From NCBI GenBank assembly GCA_002709295.1, contig PAQL01000007.1:20927-66380 (forward strand): DNA of 45,454 bases, in the 5' to 3' direction. Under the pieces are notes generated by a model that worked only from the letters and a program-made list of their open reading frames with translations, was not told the origin of the DNA and ran no database searches. Origin of the DNA: Phycisphaerae bacterium. Lineage in GTDB: Bacteria; Planctomycetota; Phycisphaerae; Phycisphaerales; SM1A02. Made by a program: the position numbers and the translations under genes. Of this stretch, positions 23,878 to 30,707 are shown piece after piece (position 1 is the first letter of the stretch; each line of letters begins with the position of its first letter).

Positions 23878-25041
23878 ATGAAGGCCGCCCTGCTGATCGA
23901 ACCGAAGCGCCTCGAGATCCGCGACGTTCCGACTCCGGAGATCGGCGATCGGGACGTCCTGGTCGCGATCGATGCGGTCGGGGTGTGCGGCTCCGATGTC
24001 CACATCTACGCCGGCCACATCAACTGGAACATCGATGCCTCGGGGCGGGAGATTCCCCTCGAGTCGTCCCCGCAGATCCTCGGCCACGAGATCGTCGGCC
24101 GGATCACCGATGTCGGATCGAAGGTCCACGACGTCGTGGTGGGCGATCGGGTGGTGGTCGATCAGGGGATCAACTGTTCGAGCCGGGGCAGGGACCGCGC
24201 CGACTGGTGCGAATACTGCACCACCGGATTCAGCCACCACTGCGCCGACTACGTGGAACACGGGATCACCGGACTTCCCGGCGGCTTCGCCGACAGCATC
24301 CTCGTCCCCGCCGTCAACGTGATTCCGATCCGCGGCGACATCTCGTCGGAGAAGGCGGCGATGACCGAGCCGCTGGGATGCGTGCTGCATTCCCTGCGTC
24401 TGGTCGACACCTACGGGGGAAGACACTCGTTCACGACCGACGAACCGTCTCGCAGGGTGCGCACCGTCGCCCTGGCGGGTCTAGGACCCGGCGGCCAGTT
24501 GTTCGGGCAGGCGCTTCGGGGAATCCTCGGCTTCGAAGGCCCGATCGTGGCCAGCGATCCGGATGCCGGCAAGCGGAGACGAGCCCGGGAGGACTTCGGA
24601 GCGATCGTGGTGGATCCGGAGGATCCGAGCGCGATGATCGATGCGGTCCGCGAGGCTTCGGCGGGCCGAGGATGCGAGATGCTCATCGATGCCTGCGGAT
24701 CGCCGACCGCCTGGCGGGGTTTCGCCACCATGCTGCGCAAGCAGGGAACCGCGATCCTCTACGGGTTCGGGCGGGAGCGAGGCTCGGAGGGAACCCTCGA
24801 TGCGATCCAGTGGCGGGGAGCGCACCTCATCGCTTCTAGTGGTGCCAGCGGTCCCCTCGACGAGGAGGGAAGACCCGCCTTGTATCGAGAGGCGCTGGAT
24901 CATCTCGAACGGGACACCATCCGGGTAGACGACCTGGTGACCCACCGCTACGACCGACTTGAGGATCTGGACCGCGCCCTCGGCATCGATCCGGGATCAA
25001 GCGACCACCTCAAGGGTGTGCTCATCCGCGACGTCCGATGA
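23878..25041 (+). CDS. Zinc-dependent medium-chain alcohol/polyol dehydrogenase
   Basis: 387 residues of the MDR family. The catalytic zinc ligands are Cys37 (GVCGSDVH) and His70-Glu71 (GHEIVG). The structural-zinc lobe (about 99-126, NCSSRGRDRADWCEYC...HHC) has a widened first spacing compared with the classical four-cysteine lobe, as in some sugar and polyol dehydrogenases. The nucleotide motif is GLGPGGQLFGQ. Likely substrates are sugar alcohols or aldonates in the same pathway as the two upstream genes. The open frame extends upstream to 23695 within the previous gene, but ATG 23878 gives the standard family start. The 3' end overlaps the convergent acyltransferase gene by 20 bases. Confidence 0.9.
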   Translation: MKAALLIEPKRLEIRDVPTPEIGDRDVLVAIDAVGVCGSDVHIYAGHINWNIDASGREIPLESSPQILGHEIVGRITDVGSKVHDVVVGDRVVVDQGINCSSRGRDRADWCEYCTTGFSHHCADYVEHGITGLPGGFADSILVPAVNVIPIRGDISSEKAAMTEPLGCVLHSLRLVDTYGGRHSFTTDEPSRRVRTVALAGLGPGGQLFGQALRGILGFEGPIVASDPDAGKRRRAREDFGAIVVDPEDPSAMIDAVREASAGRGCEMLIDACGSPTAWRGFATMLRKQGTAILYGFGRERGSEGTLDAIQWRGAHLIASSGASGPLDEEGRPALYREALDHLERDTIRVDDLVTHRYDRLEDLDRALGIDPGSSDHLKGVLIRDVR

Positions 25042-25690
25042 GTCTCCAGCGCGACGTGGACGATCCGGAGGGCGAGCGGCCCGCCCCATCGGAGACGGGC
25101 AGGACGATCTCGAGCATCCTGCGGCCGCCGTTCGACACGACCTGGAGCGGGGATTCCCGGTAGCCCAGACGGGTCCGGAGACGGTCATCGCCGTTCGACT
25201 CCAGACAGTGGTCCCGTTGGAATCCCCGCCGAGCGAGACTGGTGACCAGCGAGGCCATGAATCGAACGGTGAGGTGCGCTCCTCTTTCCGGATCGACCAG
25301 GAGGCGACTCGAGAACGAGGCCTCCTCCCCGCCCGGTCGCGGTTCGCGGCATGAATCTTCGATCACCAGGCCGCGTCGAGCACATGCCGCATGGAACTCC
25401 TCGAGCCGGATCGCGGCATGCACGGTGTTCCCCTCGCCGTATGCCGCGAGGTGATCGGACCCGACGTCGAGCTCCTCGAGGAGACGACCGTCGCACGCGG
25501 TGAATCCCATCTTCCGTCCCATCCGACGCCCCAGAACTCGATGCCGGAATCGGTAGACGGCATCCCGATCGACCGGGCCGTTCGCGAGACGGATGTCGAG
25601 CCGACCGACGGCTCCCGCGCCAAGGAGCGGCATGGGCTCCTTCCAGCAATCGGTCTCGCGTTCAGGGATCTCGGTAGCGGAACCGGACAT
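25022..25690 (-). CDS. GNAT-fold acyltransferase, FeeM / autoinducer-synthase-like
   Basis: 222 residues. The segment VYRFRHRVLGRRMGRKM, then DEL-type acidic residues and HLAAYGEGNTVHAAIRLEE, resembles the N-acyl amino acid synthase (FeeM) and acyl-homoserine lactone synthase group. A similar family is annotated as the PEP-CTERM/exosortase-associated acyltransferase. A later block (SFSSRLLVDPERGAHLTVRFMASL) fits the cofactor-binding half of the fold. The start at ATG 25690 is supported by a strong GGAGGAG ribosome site 6 bases upstream. ATGs further upstream (25726, 25768) lack one. The C-terminal 20 residues are Ser/Arg-rich and overlap the convergent dehydrogenase gene. Acyl donor and acceptor are unknown. 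Confidence 0.6.
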   Translation of the reverse strand: MSGSATEIPERETDCWKEPMPLLGAGAVGRLDIRLANGPVDRDAVYRFRHRVLGRRMGRKMGFTACDGRLLEELDVGSDHLAAYGEGNTVHAAIRLEEFHAACARRGLVIEDSCREPRPGGEEASFSSRLLVDPERGAHLTVRFMASLVTSLARRGFQRDHCLESNGDDRLRTRLGYRESPLQVVSNGGRRMLEIVLPVSDGAGRSPSGSSTSRWRLIGRRG

Positions 25691-25805
25691 GCCAGTCTCC
25701 TCCGGGAATGGAGTCCTTCGAGACATGGCGGGATCCACATCCTTCCATGCCGCCCCTCCATGCATCAATCCGGAACCGGCCCGCGGATCTATCAGCCGTG
25801 CCGGG

Positions 25806-27656: not shown

Positions 27657-30600
27657 TCAGCTCTTGCTCTGCTGACGCCGAAGGGATGCATCAACCGCCT
27701 CGTGCATCCCCTTGACATCGAGATCGTCCCCGATGAAGTCCGCGATTCGACGGGCCTCCCCCTCGGGATCCGAGATCACCGCATCGTAGTCGACGAACAG
27801 CACGTCGATGTCCTCGCGGCGCGCCAGCAACCGCTCGACCATCGCGAGCTGGGCATCGAGGGTCTGCATCATCCGACTTCGAGCGAGCCGACCACCCTCA
27901 CGACCCAGACGCTCCAGCATGACCTCCTGGCTCTTCACGATGTCGCGGAGATCACGATCCATGAAGACGATTCGATACCGCTCGCCGCTCGGAAGATGGG
28001 CTAGCAGCTGGGCGACCAGCTTGAAGACCCCGCCGCGGACTTCCGGAACCCAGCTCTGATCCGTGGCGATCCTCGTCGCCTTCTCATGCTCCAGATAGCC
28101 CCGCGGGTTGTCCGAGTCGGCCTCCCGCTTGTCGTCGGTGAACGGCTCGAGCCCACCCCCGACCAGCATCTGCATCATCATCGAGGTGCCTGATCTGGGG
28201 AGTCCGCTCACGATCGTGACGGGGTCGTGGTCCGAGGCCTTGGCATCGGCTGCAGCCTCGGCCGGAGCCCCGGTCCCGTCGAAGAGACCGGATCGCCGCT
28301 CGGCACGGCCCGCGGCGATGGCGCTCCAGACGGTGTCGATGTCGTCGGCGTCGACGGCTCGTTCCAGCTGCTTTCCCTCCTCAATGCCGGCGAGGAATTC
28401 GCGGTGGGCCCGGATCTCGTCCTTCTCTCCCATCTGTTCGAGAAGTTCGATGATGCCGTTCCTGGCCTCGACGAACGATGGAGCCTGCTGAATGGCGACC
28501 CCGTAGGCGATTCTGGCGCTCGCGAGGTCGTTCGACTCGTGAAGACCGCGAGCCAGCAGATAGTGGACCCGGGGATTCTGAAAACGAAGCTCGGTCGCCG
28601 TCAGCGCCTGCTCGATCAGCTCGTCCCATTCACCGTCGGACAACGCGACCTCGGCAAGGCCCTGTCGTGCTCCGACATTCTCGTCGTCGTGTTCAAGGGC
28701 CCGGTTGAAGCAGATCCTCGCCGACTCGACATCATCGACATCGAGCATCGAGAAACCGATCTGATTGTGGAGATCCGGATTCCTGCGGTCCGCGACCTCC
28801 TCCATGATGCGCTTGAGCTGCTGCGCCGCCCTCGTGTGATTGCCCATCGCGATCTGATTCTTGAGCATCATCCACTCGATCGTGGATCGCATCGGCTGCA
28901 GGAGCGACATCACCTTCCGAATCCGGAAGGAGAGCTTCCTGGGCATCTCCTCGGCCGGCTTCTCCTTCTCCTGTTCCTCCCCCTCGCCCTCACGGGGCGA
29001 CGCTTCTTCGGCATCCCCGCCACCCGATACCTCGATGTCCAGCTCCGCCACCTGTGCGGCATCCTCCGATTCGTTCCGCTTCACTCTCGGGAGATCGACG
29101 CCGTACTGCTCGGCTTCGGGGCGGAGGGCCTCGAGTTCGTTCAACGCCCACTCCGAACCCGATCGGACGTTGGCCACGAACTGTTCGATCGCGACGGCCA
29201 CCTCCACATGACGATCCATGCCGTTGAGGCAGGCGATGTGATTCAGACCGAATCGATGTTCGTGGGGCCACTCCTCCCAGATCGACTGGAGAAGCTCCGC
29301 CGCCTCGGGAAGACGACCTCCGTCCATGTAGGCCTGAGCGAGGTTGTAGTGAAGTTCGCGAATCGTCTCGCGCACCGCGACGTTCGAGTCCTCGTCCGGC
29401 TCGTCGATGTAACCGAGTTCGACCAGCTGCTTCATGGCCTCGGCGCTCTGGACGCTGTCCAGATGCGAATCGGGGGGGTGCATTCCGTGGGGATGCGGCC
29501 CATCGATCTCGTCCCAGGAGGGGATCGACTGGATGCTCGGGGTGTCCTCGAAGATCGTCACCAGCGGCTTGCCGTCCATGTCCTCGCCGGTGGGCAGCCC
29601 GAAGCAGGCCAGGACGGTGGGCGTCAGGTCGAGCACGCTCGCACCCTGCACGGTCTCACCGGCACGGATGCCGGGGCCGCGGGCCACGAAGATTCCGTAG
29701 GGACGATGCTCGATCGCGGGCCCCGCGGGCTCCGCCGGGATGTGTTCGGGTCTCAGATGATCGGGGTGGAAACCATGATCCGAAAGGAGCATCACGGTGG
29801 TCTCCGGACCCGCGAGCTGGAGCATCGCACCGAGCATCATGTCGTGGAACCGGTATCCGCCCTCCACGACCCCCTTGTAGATCTCGAAGTCCTCCTCCTT
29901 GATCCATTCCTGACGAGGAGGGTGGTACTTCATGAAGCCGTGACCGAAGTGATCGATCCCGTCGTAGTAGACGGCCATGAAGTCCCAGGGCTCCAGCTGC
30001 ATCAGGGCCGTCGCCGCACCATGAACGCTCACGGTGTCCGCGAGGGTCTTCGCGAACCCGCTGAGCCGCTGGTCCTTCTTCTGGTCGATCTCCATGAACC
30101 TCGGAATGAACGGTCCCACATGTTCGGGGTCCAGCTCCATCGGATGGAACCGGAACTCCTGAAGATTGTCGGCGAGACGGGGAGGGTGGACGGTCCCGGG
30201 AGCCATGGTCCACTGATCGTCCTTCCAGCCGTGCGCCCCGGGCCGTGGCCTGCCGATCTCGGGATCGAGGTCGGCATTCTTGATCTGACGGGCGGTCTGG
30301 TACCAGTTGCTCACCATGACGCCGTCGATCGGCTCGGCCGGATGAGAAGGCCACCAGGCGACCACGTTGCACTTCTTGCCGGTCTGGTTGAGCATGTTCC
30401 AGACCGCCTTGGACTTCCTGCTGACGTTGGTGATCGGACGAACCGACTTGCCGTCGGGGGTCGGCTCGCTGAAGCCGTGGATCCCGTGCTTGTAGGGTCG
30501 CTTCCCCGTGGCGATCGAAGACCAGAGCATCGGACTGAGCACCGGGTTGAGGGTCGAGATGTTTCCATGAACGCCCTCATCCATCATCTTCTGGAGGTTC

Positions 30601-30707
30601 GGCATCTTGCCCTCCTCAAGAAGAGGTCGGATCGCCCTCCAGTCGGCGGCATCCCAGCCGATGACGAGGACCTTCGAATCGTTCGGTTCTGGAAGCATGG
30701 CGGTCAT
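27657..30707 (-). CDS. Phosphodiesterase (AlkP superfamily) - TPR - sulfotransferase fusion
   Basis: 1016 residues in three parts. Residues 13-415 form a type I phosphodiesterase/nucleotide pyrophosphatase domain: metal Asp in GWDAADW, nucleophile region LSPMLWSSIATG, YDGIDHFGHG and SDHG, with a HRPYGIF His. Residues about 435-815 hold TPR-like helical repeats broken by an acidic linker (about 560-590). Residues 830-1016 form a sulfotransferase with the PAPS 5'-phosphosulfate loop SGLPRSGTSMMMQML and a 3'-phosphate-binding RDLRDIVKSQE. No signal peptide is visible, so it is probably cytoplasmic. The combination suggests transfer and removal of sulfate or phosphate on the same glycan or lipid, which is inference. 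GGAACGGAA precedes the ATG. Confidence 0.85.
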   Translation of the reverse strand: MTAMLPEPNDSKVLVIGWDAADWRAIRPLLEEGKMPNLQKMMDEGVHGNISTLNPVLSPMLWSSIATGKRPYKHGIHGFSEPTPDGKSVRPITNVSRKSKAVWNMLNQTGKKCNVVAWWPSHPAEPIDGVMVSNWYQTARQIKNADLDPEIGRPRPGAHGWKDDQWTMAPGTVHPPRLADNLQEFRFHPMELDPEHVGPFIPRFMEIDQKKDQRLSGFAKTLADTVSVHGAATALMQLEPWDFMAVYYDGIDHFGHGFMKYHPPRQEWIKEEDFEIYKGVVEGGYRFHDMMLGAMLQLAGPETTVMLLSDHGFHPDHLRPEHIPAEPAGPAIEHRPYGIFVARGPGIRAGETVQGASVLDLTPTVLACFGLPTGEDMDGKPLVTIFEDTPSIQSIPSWDEIDGPHPHGMHPPDSHLDSVQSAEAMKQLVELGYIDEPDEDSNVAVRETIRELHYNLAQAYMDGGRLPEAAELLQSIWEEWPHEHRFGLNHIACLNGMDRHVEVAVAIEQFVANVRSGSEWALNELEALRPEAEQYGVDLPRVKRNESEDAAQVAELDIEVSGGGDAEEASPREGEGEEQEKEKPAEEMPRKLSFRIRKVMSLLQPMRSTIEWMMLKNQIAMGNHTRAAQQLKRIMEEVADRRNPDLHNQIGFSMLDVDDVESARICFNRALEHDDENVGARQGLAEVALSDGEWDELIEQALTATELRFQNPRVHYLLARGLHESNDLASARIAYGVAIQQAPSFVEARNGIIELLEQMGEKDEIRAHREFLAGIEEGKQLERAVDADDIDTVWSAIAAGRAERRSGLFDGTGAPAEAAADAKASDHDPVTIVSGLPRSGTSMMMQMLVGGGLEPFTDDKREADSDNPRGYLEHEKATRIATDQSWVPEVRGGVFKLVAQLLAHLPSGERYRIVFMDRDLRDIVKSQEVMLERLGREGGRLARSRMMQTLDAQLAMVERLLARREDIDVLFVDYDAVISDPEGEARRIADFIGDDLDVKGMHEAVDASLRRQQSKS

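Follow-up and report, generated by a model that had tools for sequence, protein, structure and literature searches.

In our study, a stretch of 45,454 nucleotides from a Phycisphaerae bacterium (hereafter the window) was found to encode a fusion of a phosphodiesterase (PDE), a TPR scaffold and a PAPS sulfotransferase (ST), whose relatives are accompanied by two further elements. One is a short motif, GSLGLLALGxxGLxAWRxKR, and the other is an unannotated domain common to the exported proteins that occur with the fusion; the labels CORE and HYGW, respectively, are coined here. We tentatively interpret the fusion as a bifunctional enzyme of the cytosol which modifies exported proteins and is brought to these clients by CORE, a reading that may be right, with an acceptor and a chemistry that we infer.

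The three-domain architecture had been proposed by an earlier, sequence-only reading and was borne out by the intact reading frame (Table 1) and by the Pfam models PF01663 (Phosphodiest, residues 13-315, 1.8e-28), TPR_19 (2.1e-14), Sulfotransfer_3 (residues 895-993, 1.8e-10) and Sulfotransfer_1 (3.7e-6), all of which score above gathering. Other TPR models match as well, the TPR matches lying at about residues 451 to 740. No NCBIfam model exceeded its cut-off on the protein, and no signal peptide was recognised by eye. Structure prediction, which had been suggested as a check, delivered an AlphaFold2 model with a pLDDT of 91.5 and a pTM of 0.86 (71-sequence alignment). It shows the NPP/PafA fold, with Z scores of 27.1-27.2 against ENPP1, ENPP3 and PafA (rmsd 2.8-3.8 over 280-329 residues). 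The structure-comparison matches listed all fall on the PDE domain, with no sulfotransferase among them and residues beyond 743 barely covered. For the ST part, a sequence profile matches SULT chains (best 2.2e-6).

Table 1. Positions in the window of the fusion gene, its domains, its conserved sites and the adjacent gene
Feature	Residues	Position	Strand	Basis
PDE-TPR-sulfotransferase fusion	1016 aa	27657..30707	minus	single uninterrupted ORF, ATG start
NPP/alkaline-phosphatase-superfamily phosphodiesterase domain	~9-390	29538..30683	minus	Pfam PF01663; model vs ENPP1, ENPP3, PafA Z ~27
TPR / helical-repeat scaffold	~441-786	28350..29387	minus	Pfam TPR families; helices in model
PAPS sulfotransferase domain	~828-1016	27660..28226	minus	Pfam PF13469/PF00685; profile vs aryl sulfotransferase chain 2.2e-6
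GWDAADW, including D19	17-23	30639..30659	minus	D19 in 69/71 aligned, 2 gaps
S58	58	30534..30536	minus	71/71 aligned
D252 and H256, within DHFGH	252-256	29940..29954	minus	71/71 aligned
D310-H311, within SDHG 309-312	310-311	29775..29780	minus	71/71 aligned
5'-phosphosulfate-binding loop SGLPRSGTS	834-842	28182..28208	minus	P837, R838, G840, T841, S842 71/71
3'-phosphate-binding strand RDLRDIVKS	918-926	27930..27956	minus	R918, S926 71/71
Degenerate PDE-like + TPR gene	558 aa	25939..27615	minus	hhalign 96% to PDE residues 61-138

The active-site residues of both end domains, already noticed in the sequence, proved to be conserved in an alignment of 71 fusion proteins: S58, D252, H256, D310, H311, H334, P837, R838, G840, T841, S842, E873, K896, R918 and S926 are invariant, and D19 is interrupted only by two gaps. 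We take D19, by the NPP motif, and D252, H256, D310 and H311 to be metal ligands, and S58 presumably occupies the position of the NPP/AP nucleophile. The PDE domain thus combines, in model and sequence, the fold of the AP superfamily with a Thr/Ser nucleophile and Asp/His ligands, and its activity is predicted. The ST domain contains the 5'-PSB loop and the 3'-PB Arg...Ser pair, by which PAPS-dependent transfer is predicted.

Relatives were collected by an alignment-based profile search of genome contigs, and genes were called by a purpose-written script trained by GC. The fusion is a single ORF in 79 of the best 80 of 519 relatives' loci, distributed over about eight phyla as judged from record titles, a ranking which is biased toward fusions because only these 80 were retained. 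The sole exception (L160) has two separate genes. An architecture search for the same fusion had been recommended, with the domains occurring only as separate genes in relatives named as the refuting outcome; this did not hold. A misassembly or frameshift is ruled out by the intact ORF, by these single-ORF relatives and by a second full-length copy elsewhere in the window's genome (43% identity), and an oddity of one genome is ruled out by the 519 relatives. A defence system was likewise rejected, PADLOC giving one marginal match (PycC, 7.4e-4, residues 683-825). Among 34 loci of the window's order, including the window itself, ten genes are fusions; control region L070 was left out of the comparison since it overlaps a focal locus. 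A PDE-TPR gene adjoins an ST gene in five of these loci (L038, L045-L048), and an ST gene adjoins divergent PDE genes in two (L049, L050). The window's genome also encodes a protein (G000:C9, L063:9028-10443) with a related ST part (35% identity to the fusion over residues 815-999) but no PDE match.

Beside the fusion lies a gene for a protein of 558 residues in which the catalytic D/H residues are not recognisable by eye. Its gene cluster adjoins the fusion in the window and in L032-L035 and is present in five of the best 80 loci. By its sequence, this neighbour may be a pseudoenzyme kept beside this subclade of fusions.

In the Phycisphaerales-type set, HYGW was detected in 12 of 69 immediate neighbours of the fusion outside the training loci, vs none of 223 genes at a distance of at least four genes and none of 312 control genes. 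Within three genes of the fusion it occurs at 14 of 34 Phycisphaerales-type and 20 of 24 Bacteroidia loci; the corresponding 45 of the best 80 loci is a training figure, since the model was built on those loci. Two model sequences come from L135, a Flavobacteriales MAG, and further rows from genomes that were themselves compared, G093, G266 and G246 in Bacteroidia and G008 in the window's family. In Bacteroidia, 22 of 23 fusion-bearing genomes contain HYGW (19 of 20 without the three contributors) vs five of 20 fusion-lacking ones, the latter being those listed of 224. In the window's family the result is 7/7 vs 5/11 at the original cut-off of 0.001, three of those five being weak, and 7/7 vs 2/11 at the stricter E<1e-8, which was set in hindsight; the 11 fusion-lacking genomes were hand-chosen from 35 without a fusion match, and the fusion-bearing G057 was left out. 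Since the genomes compared are related, the Fisher values calculated are indicative only. Per genome there are up to 27 HYGW matches vs one or two enzyme genes. No HYGW gene lies within the window, and all 11 matches of its genome are located outside.

The tails of these partners point to known sorting routes. A PEP-CTERM tail exceeds the PF07589 cut-off of 20.7 bits in the HYGW partners of L115 (31.0) and L131 (22.5) and the TIGR02595 cut-off of 16 bits in those of L040 (26.2) and L047 (16.3); in the partners of L121 (PF07589) and of L035, L036 and L037 (TIGR02595) the signal stays below the curated cut-off. Bacteroidia partners bear, as judged by eye, T9SS-like tails. All 61 genomes examined from the window's order have exosortase, which therefore has no discriminating value there.

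CORE changes its place among lineages. In Bacteroidia it forms a protein of 47-88 residues encoded directly upstream of the fusion at 20 of 24 loci and the N-terminus of the fusion itself at three, a count which omits the partial locus L190 of G196. The 27 Bacteroidia loci correspond to 25 genes, L193 and L194 being further stretches of the L187 and L188 genes. CORE was detected in 21 of 23 fusion-bearing Bacteroidia genomes, with G196 included as lacking it and two lacking it in total, vs none of the 20 fusion-lacking genomes. Model rows were drawn from 12 of these 23; among the other 11, nine also have CORE. Outside Bacteroidia, 16 genomes were picked for their fusion loci, most with an adjacent exported partner, while CORE likeness played no part and none gave model rows. 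Here CORE matches were obtained in 12 (best E 1.7e-5 to 0.036), and none at E<=0.1 in four. In all 12 the best match is at most 2.3 kb from the fusion gene, and in 11 it is, judged by position, the tail of the exported partner; the ten of these 12 for which PEP-CTERM matches were counted, by a purpose-written regular expression, have 14-80 each. Taking all CORE matches together, 18 of 37 lie within 2.3 kb of the fusion and 19 away from it.

The CORE model gave 43 partner tails a median score of 12.7 bits vs -0.55 for generic PEP-CTERM tails (30 tails, maximum 12.9), which were taken from 12 of the genomes after setting aside three HYGW partner proteins. Of the sequences in the tail model, two from L135 are no PEP-CTERM tails and are distinct from the L135 small protein. 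This likeness may be partly convergence, because both elements are short, hydrophobic and contain arginine. In the CORE small proteins the motif lies in the interior, and inspection by eye reveals no signal peptide; L142 and L164 remain below the PEP-CTERM cut-off of 20.7 (12.7 and 11.8 bits), and four others are unmatched. Among the best 80 loci, eight are CORE loci, seven with small cytosolic proteins and one (L137) with an exported PEP-CTERM protein. Neither HYGW within three genes nor a CORE protein was found at 31 of these 80 loci (22 if the count is restricted to the 63 whose upstream sequence spans 1000 nt or more); a divergent exported neighbour is present at three of the 31 (L123, L152, L154). 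At E<=0.01, no CORE match was obtained in the window's genome or in four of five close relatives.

From these associations a possible course of events can be outlined. The enzyme accompanies CORE, as the genome statistics indicate, and CORE would act as a docking or activating peptide which recruits the enzyme to the inner membrane, where it meets its client. In Bacteroidia it would do so from the small upstream protein or the enzyme's own N-terminus, and in many exosortase-bearing bacteria from the PEP-CTERM tail of an exported partner whose gene is close by, this tail being the nearest CORE match there. For the window's copy this step is carried over from relatives, because its genome lacks a CORE match. 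The HYGW proteins, associated with the fusion, would be the clients. Before or during export, the C-terminal domain would move sulfate from PAPS onto the client, the candidate acceptor being the tyrosine of a [WY]AY[ED]-like motif in HYGW proteins (AY in 16 of 19 aligned). As the weakest step, the NPP-type domain might remove or swap a phosphodiester carried by the client or by the client's anchor; the sequence and the model leave the role of this domain unconstrained. Taken as a whole, it is possible, if doubtful, that we are dealing with an undescribed system: a phosphodiesterase-sulfotransferase steered by a CORE that relocates among the client's sorting tail, a small protein and the enzyme, putting sulfate on a large family exported via exosortase or T9SS and editing its phosphodiester. 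Some PEP-CTERM tails would thus be recruitment as well as sorting signals.

The joining of the two end domains had earlier suggested transfer chemistry on a polymer or lipid that is remodelled in place. The domain architecture behind this idea stands; the substrate finds no direct support. What accompanies the family is a set of exported proteins, together with a short motif of peptide length. The nearest alternative is that the enzyme modifies, in the cytosol, the lipid or glycan anchor of exosortase or T9SS cargo, with the HYGW proteins as cargo linked to it later, which we regard as rather unlikely. Phosphodiesters of lipids and of nucleotides are substrates of enzymes with the NPP fold, to which the model assigns the PDE domain; moreover, four of the best 80 loci share a gene that looks sulfatase-like by eye. 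A lipid or glycan acceptor is conceivable also because the partners use exosortase and T9SS, systems for which the joining of cargo to an anchor has been proposed or demonstrated (PMC7468200, in the part cited). However, the association concerns one protein domain family and not PEP-CTERM proteins at large, and no glycosyltransferase or lipid-synthesis gene was seen by eye among the 23 neighbour clusters shown for the best 80 loci.

CORE could instead be a regulatory or membrane-tethering subunit that selects no client, its PEP-CTERM likeness reflecting a common need for a membrane-seeking helix and arginines. We consider this explanation unlikely. CORE's copy number tracks the enzyme, it can be fused to it, and its motif is basic and of moderate hydrophobicity, but partner tails resemble CORE more closely than generic PEP-CTERM tails do, and the best genome-wide CORE matches adjoin the fusion. 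Improbable in our view is a small sulfated metabolite as the product of the ST domain, with the PDE domain recycling PAP/PAPS or hydrolysing a nucleotide by-product and the neighbours being incidental. The SULT-type similarity and the nucleotide-pyrophosphatase-like fold would fit, but the near one-to-one occurrence of CORE and fusion, the fusion of CORE in cis and the adjacency of HYGW in several phyla would be left unexplained.

To our knowledge, little is known about bacterial protein sulfation. If the preferred reading of a CORE-guided enzyme for exported clients is true, the questions of protein sulfation and of the PEP-CTERM anchor become testable through a conserved enzyme that has two active sites, a family of clients and a docking peptide able to change its place, and a PEP-CTERM-like tail is read by something besides exosortase. 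The compound conjugated to PEP-CTERM proteins is called unidentified in the portion of PMC7468200 referred to here. By title and the start of the abstract, no description of the combination was found in the open-licence PMC papers searched.

Each known system resembles a part of the present one. RaxST of Xanthomonas, a bacterial PAPS sulfotransferase, likewise has a small protein, its 60-residue substrate RaxX, encoded next to it (PMC6637879, as excerpted); unlike RaxST, the fusion also contains phosphodiesterase and TPR parts. There is no invariant tyrosine in the 25-residue CORE motif among 29 sequences (position 14 is Tyr in nine), and CORE therefore resembles a docking or activating peptide and not an acceptor as in RaxX. 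The NPP phosphodiesterases and PafA share the fold and the conserved metal and nucleophile positions, but the fusion is without a signal peptide recognised by eye and joined to TPR and sulfotransferase parts. With the PEP-CTERM/exosortase system (Haft et al. 2006, PMC1569441; cited in PMC7468200), the fusion has in common that several partners carry PEP-CTERM tails above cut-off and that many clients face one enzyme; unlike that system, fusion and CORE also occur in genomes without an exosortase match (five of seven tested), and the Bacteroidia partners carry T9SS-like tails instead.

The gene at the centre of this analysis encodes, in one uninterrupted reading frame of 1016 aa, an NPP-type phosphodiesterase (PDE), a TPR part and a PAPS sulfotransferase (ST). 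The sequence-only reading had put these three domains into a single protein and named misassembly or a frameshift as the concern; the fusion is real, since the frame is intact and 79 of the best 80 of at least 519 relatives are likewise single-ORF fusions (883-1044 aa). These relatives are encoded among the 588 matched stretches listed from the named genome collection. Pfam reports PF01663 (1.8e-28), TPR models and Sulfotransfer_3/Sulfotransfer_1 above cut-off, and an NCBIfam scan of the fusion gave no model above cut-off. Sequence relatives of solved structure are phosphonoacetate hydrolase and NPP for the PDE part, designed TPRs and OGT for the TPR part, and SULT enzymes and the protein-tyrosine sulfotransferase P-loop for the ST part. 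The AlphaFold2 model, built on 71 aligned fusions, has a mean pLDDT of 91.5 and a pTM of 0.86, and its N-terminal domain resembles ENPP1, ENPP3 and PafA (Z about 27).

In the same 71 fusions S58, D252, H256, D310, H311 and H334 are invariant on the PDE side, as are R838, G840, T841, S842, R861, E873, K896, R918 and S926 on the ST side; D19 is present in 69, with gaps in the other two. The roles of single residues are those which we presume from the families. The invariance of both sets speaks for enzymatic activity at both ends of the protein.

Among the window genome and 60 relatives, 26 of 61 genomes have matches at E<=1e-10, and the window genome holds a second copy with 43% identity across residues 10-1016. 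Ten of 34 loci read carry PDE+ST fusion genes (the window, L004, L032-L037, L039 and L044), five have an ST gene adjoining a PDE-TPR gene, and in two the neighbours of the ST gene are divergent PDE genes; the rest contain either domain alone or a distant pair. A split case was also seen at L216 (G291): a PDE-TPR protein of 825 aa shows, by eye, no P-loop in its C-terminal part, and its gene is overlapped by a separate ST gene just upstream. Record titles assign the bearers at the best 80 loci to Planctomycetota, Verrucomicrobiota, Nitrospirae, Proteobacteria, Deltaproteobacteria, Acidobacteriota, Bacteroidota and, once, Armatimonadota, labels that may be wrong because many bearers are MAGs. 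The Bacteroidia scan covered 247 genomes, with matches at E<=1e-60 in 23. The gene order of the L049 and L050 segments (see table) is identical in both genomes, and this set is perhaps a sister system.

Exported proteins accompany these genes. In Phycisphaerales-type loci, 17 of 69 immediate neighbours of PDE/ST genes are PEP-CTERM-like by our own regular expression, against 4 of 312 genes from 19 control regions in the same genomes (Fisher 1.4e-10). The globular part of the partner, unannotated and named HYGW after one strand, was made into a profile with 80 named loci as training set. Beyond that set it matched 12/69, 4/62 and 3/58 Phycisphaerales-type genes at distances 1, 2 and 3, and none of 223 genes farther away or of the 312 controls. 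Of the 24 Bacteroidia loci, 20 have HYGW no more than three genes from the fusion, and the partner tails there look T9SS-like by eye. Per genome it occurs in 22/23 fusion-bearing versus 5/20 fusion-lacking Bacteroidia (Fisher 2.3e-6), and in 19/20 bearers after removal of three that supplied model rows. For the window's family the counts are 7/7 versus 2/11 at E<1e-8, a cut picked after the table was seen, and 7/7 versus 5/11 at 0.001. One genome (G104) has 27 HYGW matches and one fusion gene. At L105, L106 and L112 the HYGW partners end in tails that by eye are not PEP-CTERM but presumably of IPTL type, and their called genes include no small CORE protein (see below). HYGW signal-peptide regions (e.g. 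L201, L204, L208, L043) share by eye a motif of about K.Y[ST]..AG...A.A.I.YTD, perhaps a further recognition element.

The second companion is a short motif, GSLGLLALGxxGLxAWRxKR, here called CORE. Seven of the 80 loci have, as the neighbour upstream of the fusion, a gene for a protein of 60-93 aa that contains P.EGSLGLLALGxxGLxAWRxKR and shows no evident signal peptide; exosortase matches are absent from five of these seven genomes and partial and weak in two, and strong in five of six comparison genomes. A profile of 43 exported-partner tails, run against 277 upstream ORFs, found six of the seven small proteins (five at 13.8-23.7 bits, L151 at 6.8). Of the distant ORFs, 8061 in number, eleven reached at least 25 bits; seven of these belong to the same cluster of exported proteins, and below the eleven the highest score was 11.6. 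At 20 Bacteroidia loci, 19 of them new (L168 repeats L161), its choice was every time the ORF immediately preceding the fusion, in 17 cases above 7.7 bits, the best score among 2218 other ORFs. With wider flanks, CORE stands directly upstream in 20 of 24 Bacteroidia loci, 14 overlapping the called fusion start, and is the fusion's own N-terminus in three.

Across whole Bacteroidia genomes CORE was found in 21/23 with and 0/20 without the fusion, twice in the two-fusion genomes G300 and G303; model rows came from 12 of the 23, and 9 of the other 11 match. Sixteen fusion genomes outside Bacteroidia supplied no rows: twelve match at E<=0.1, and G328, G329, G073 and G069 do not. The best match lies within 2.3 kb of the fusion gene in all twelve (18 of all 37 matches do), and in the eleven compared by spacing (all but G071) coincides with an exported-partner tail; ten of the twelve, counted for PEP-CTERM, hold 14-80 matches apiece. 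In G030 the sole CORE match is the tail of a HYGW protein adjoining a PDE-TPR gene.

In the window itself the fusion's neighbour is a degenerate 558-aa PDE-TPR protein retained in its subclade. No HYGW gene was found within the window, and the HYGW part for this copy rests on the 11 matches that the genome has outside it. Directly downstream of the sister copy (C29, L037) is a divergent exported neighbour (HYGW model match 6.8e-6). CORE at E<=0.01 was not found in the window genome or in G001, G002, G008 and G035, and its part here is carried over from relatives. Other neighbours are tabulated. The L037 flavoprotein has weak matches, each below cut-off, to LodB, GoxB and QhpG, which we take to be peptide-modifying flavin enzymes; the L107 GNAT-like protein has no Pfam match and the 248-aa protein no NCBIfam match above cut-off.

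Positions of the fusion, its recurrent neighbours and related gene sets
Feature	Position	Strand	Remark
PDE-TPR-ST fusion	window 27657-30707	minus	
248-aa protein	window 25022-25768	minus	adjoins degenerate PDE-TPR gene; acyltransferase-like by eye
Flavoprotein, 495-517 aa	L037:8262-9749, L039:5944-7479, L154:6514-8067, L167:8748-10280		near fusion, four loci
163-192-aa protein	L107:3549-4055, L108:2189-2767, L115:6396-6887, others		GNAT-like by eye; near fusion and exported partner, 6/80 loci
Sulfatase-like gene, cluster 13	L148, L158:14787-16025, L167:388-3099, one more		by eye; 4/80 loci
ST-domain protein (471 aa), 480-aa gene, PEP-CTERM-like protein	G000:C9, L063:6809-10443		together, elsewhere in window genome
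Separate ST gene, two divergent AP-superfamily genes, 61-63-aa protein and membrane-protein-like gene	L049:8633-14422, L050:2254-8266		

Since its copy number tracks the enzyme and it is sometimes fused to it, CORE appears to behave as a subunit or docking peptide, and HYGW proteins, many to one fusion, would behave as clients. A PEP-CTERM tail that contains CORE could bring the enzyme to its client at the membrane; for clients with T9SS tails, CORE would be provided either in trans or by the enzyme itself. Because PAPS is found in the cytosol, sulfate transfer would take place before or during client export. Within HYGW, the tyrosine of the motif [WY]AY[ED] is a candidate acceptor; the AY of this motif is present in 16 of 19 aligned rows (counted by eye). 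A search of open-licence PMC papers, judged by title and opening of the abstract, found no description of the combination. The system is best placed with peptide-guided, sorting-linked protein modification, and may well form a separate kind.
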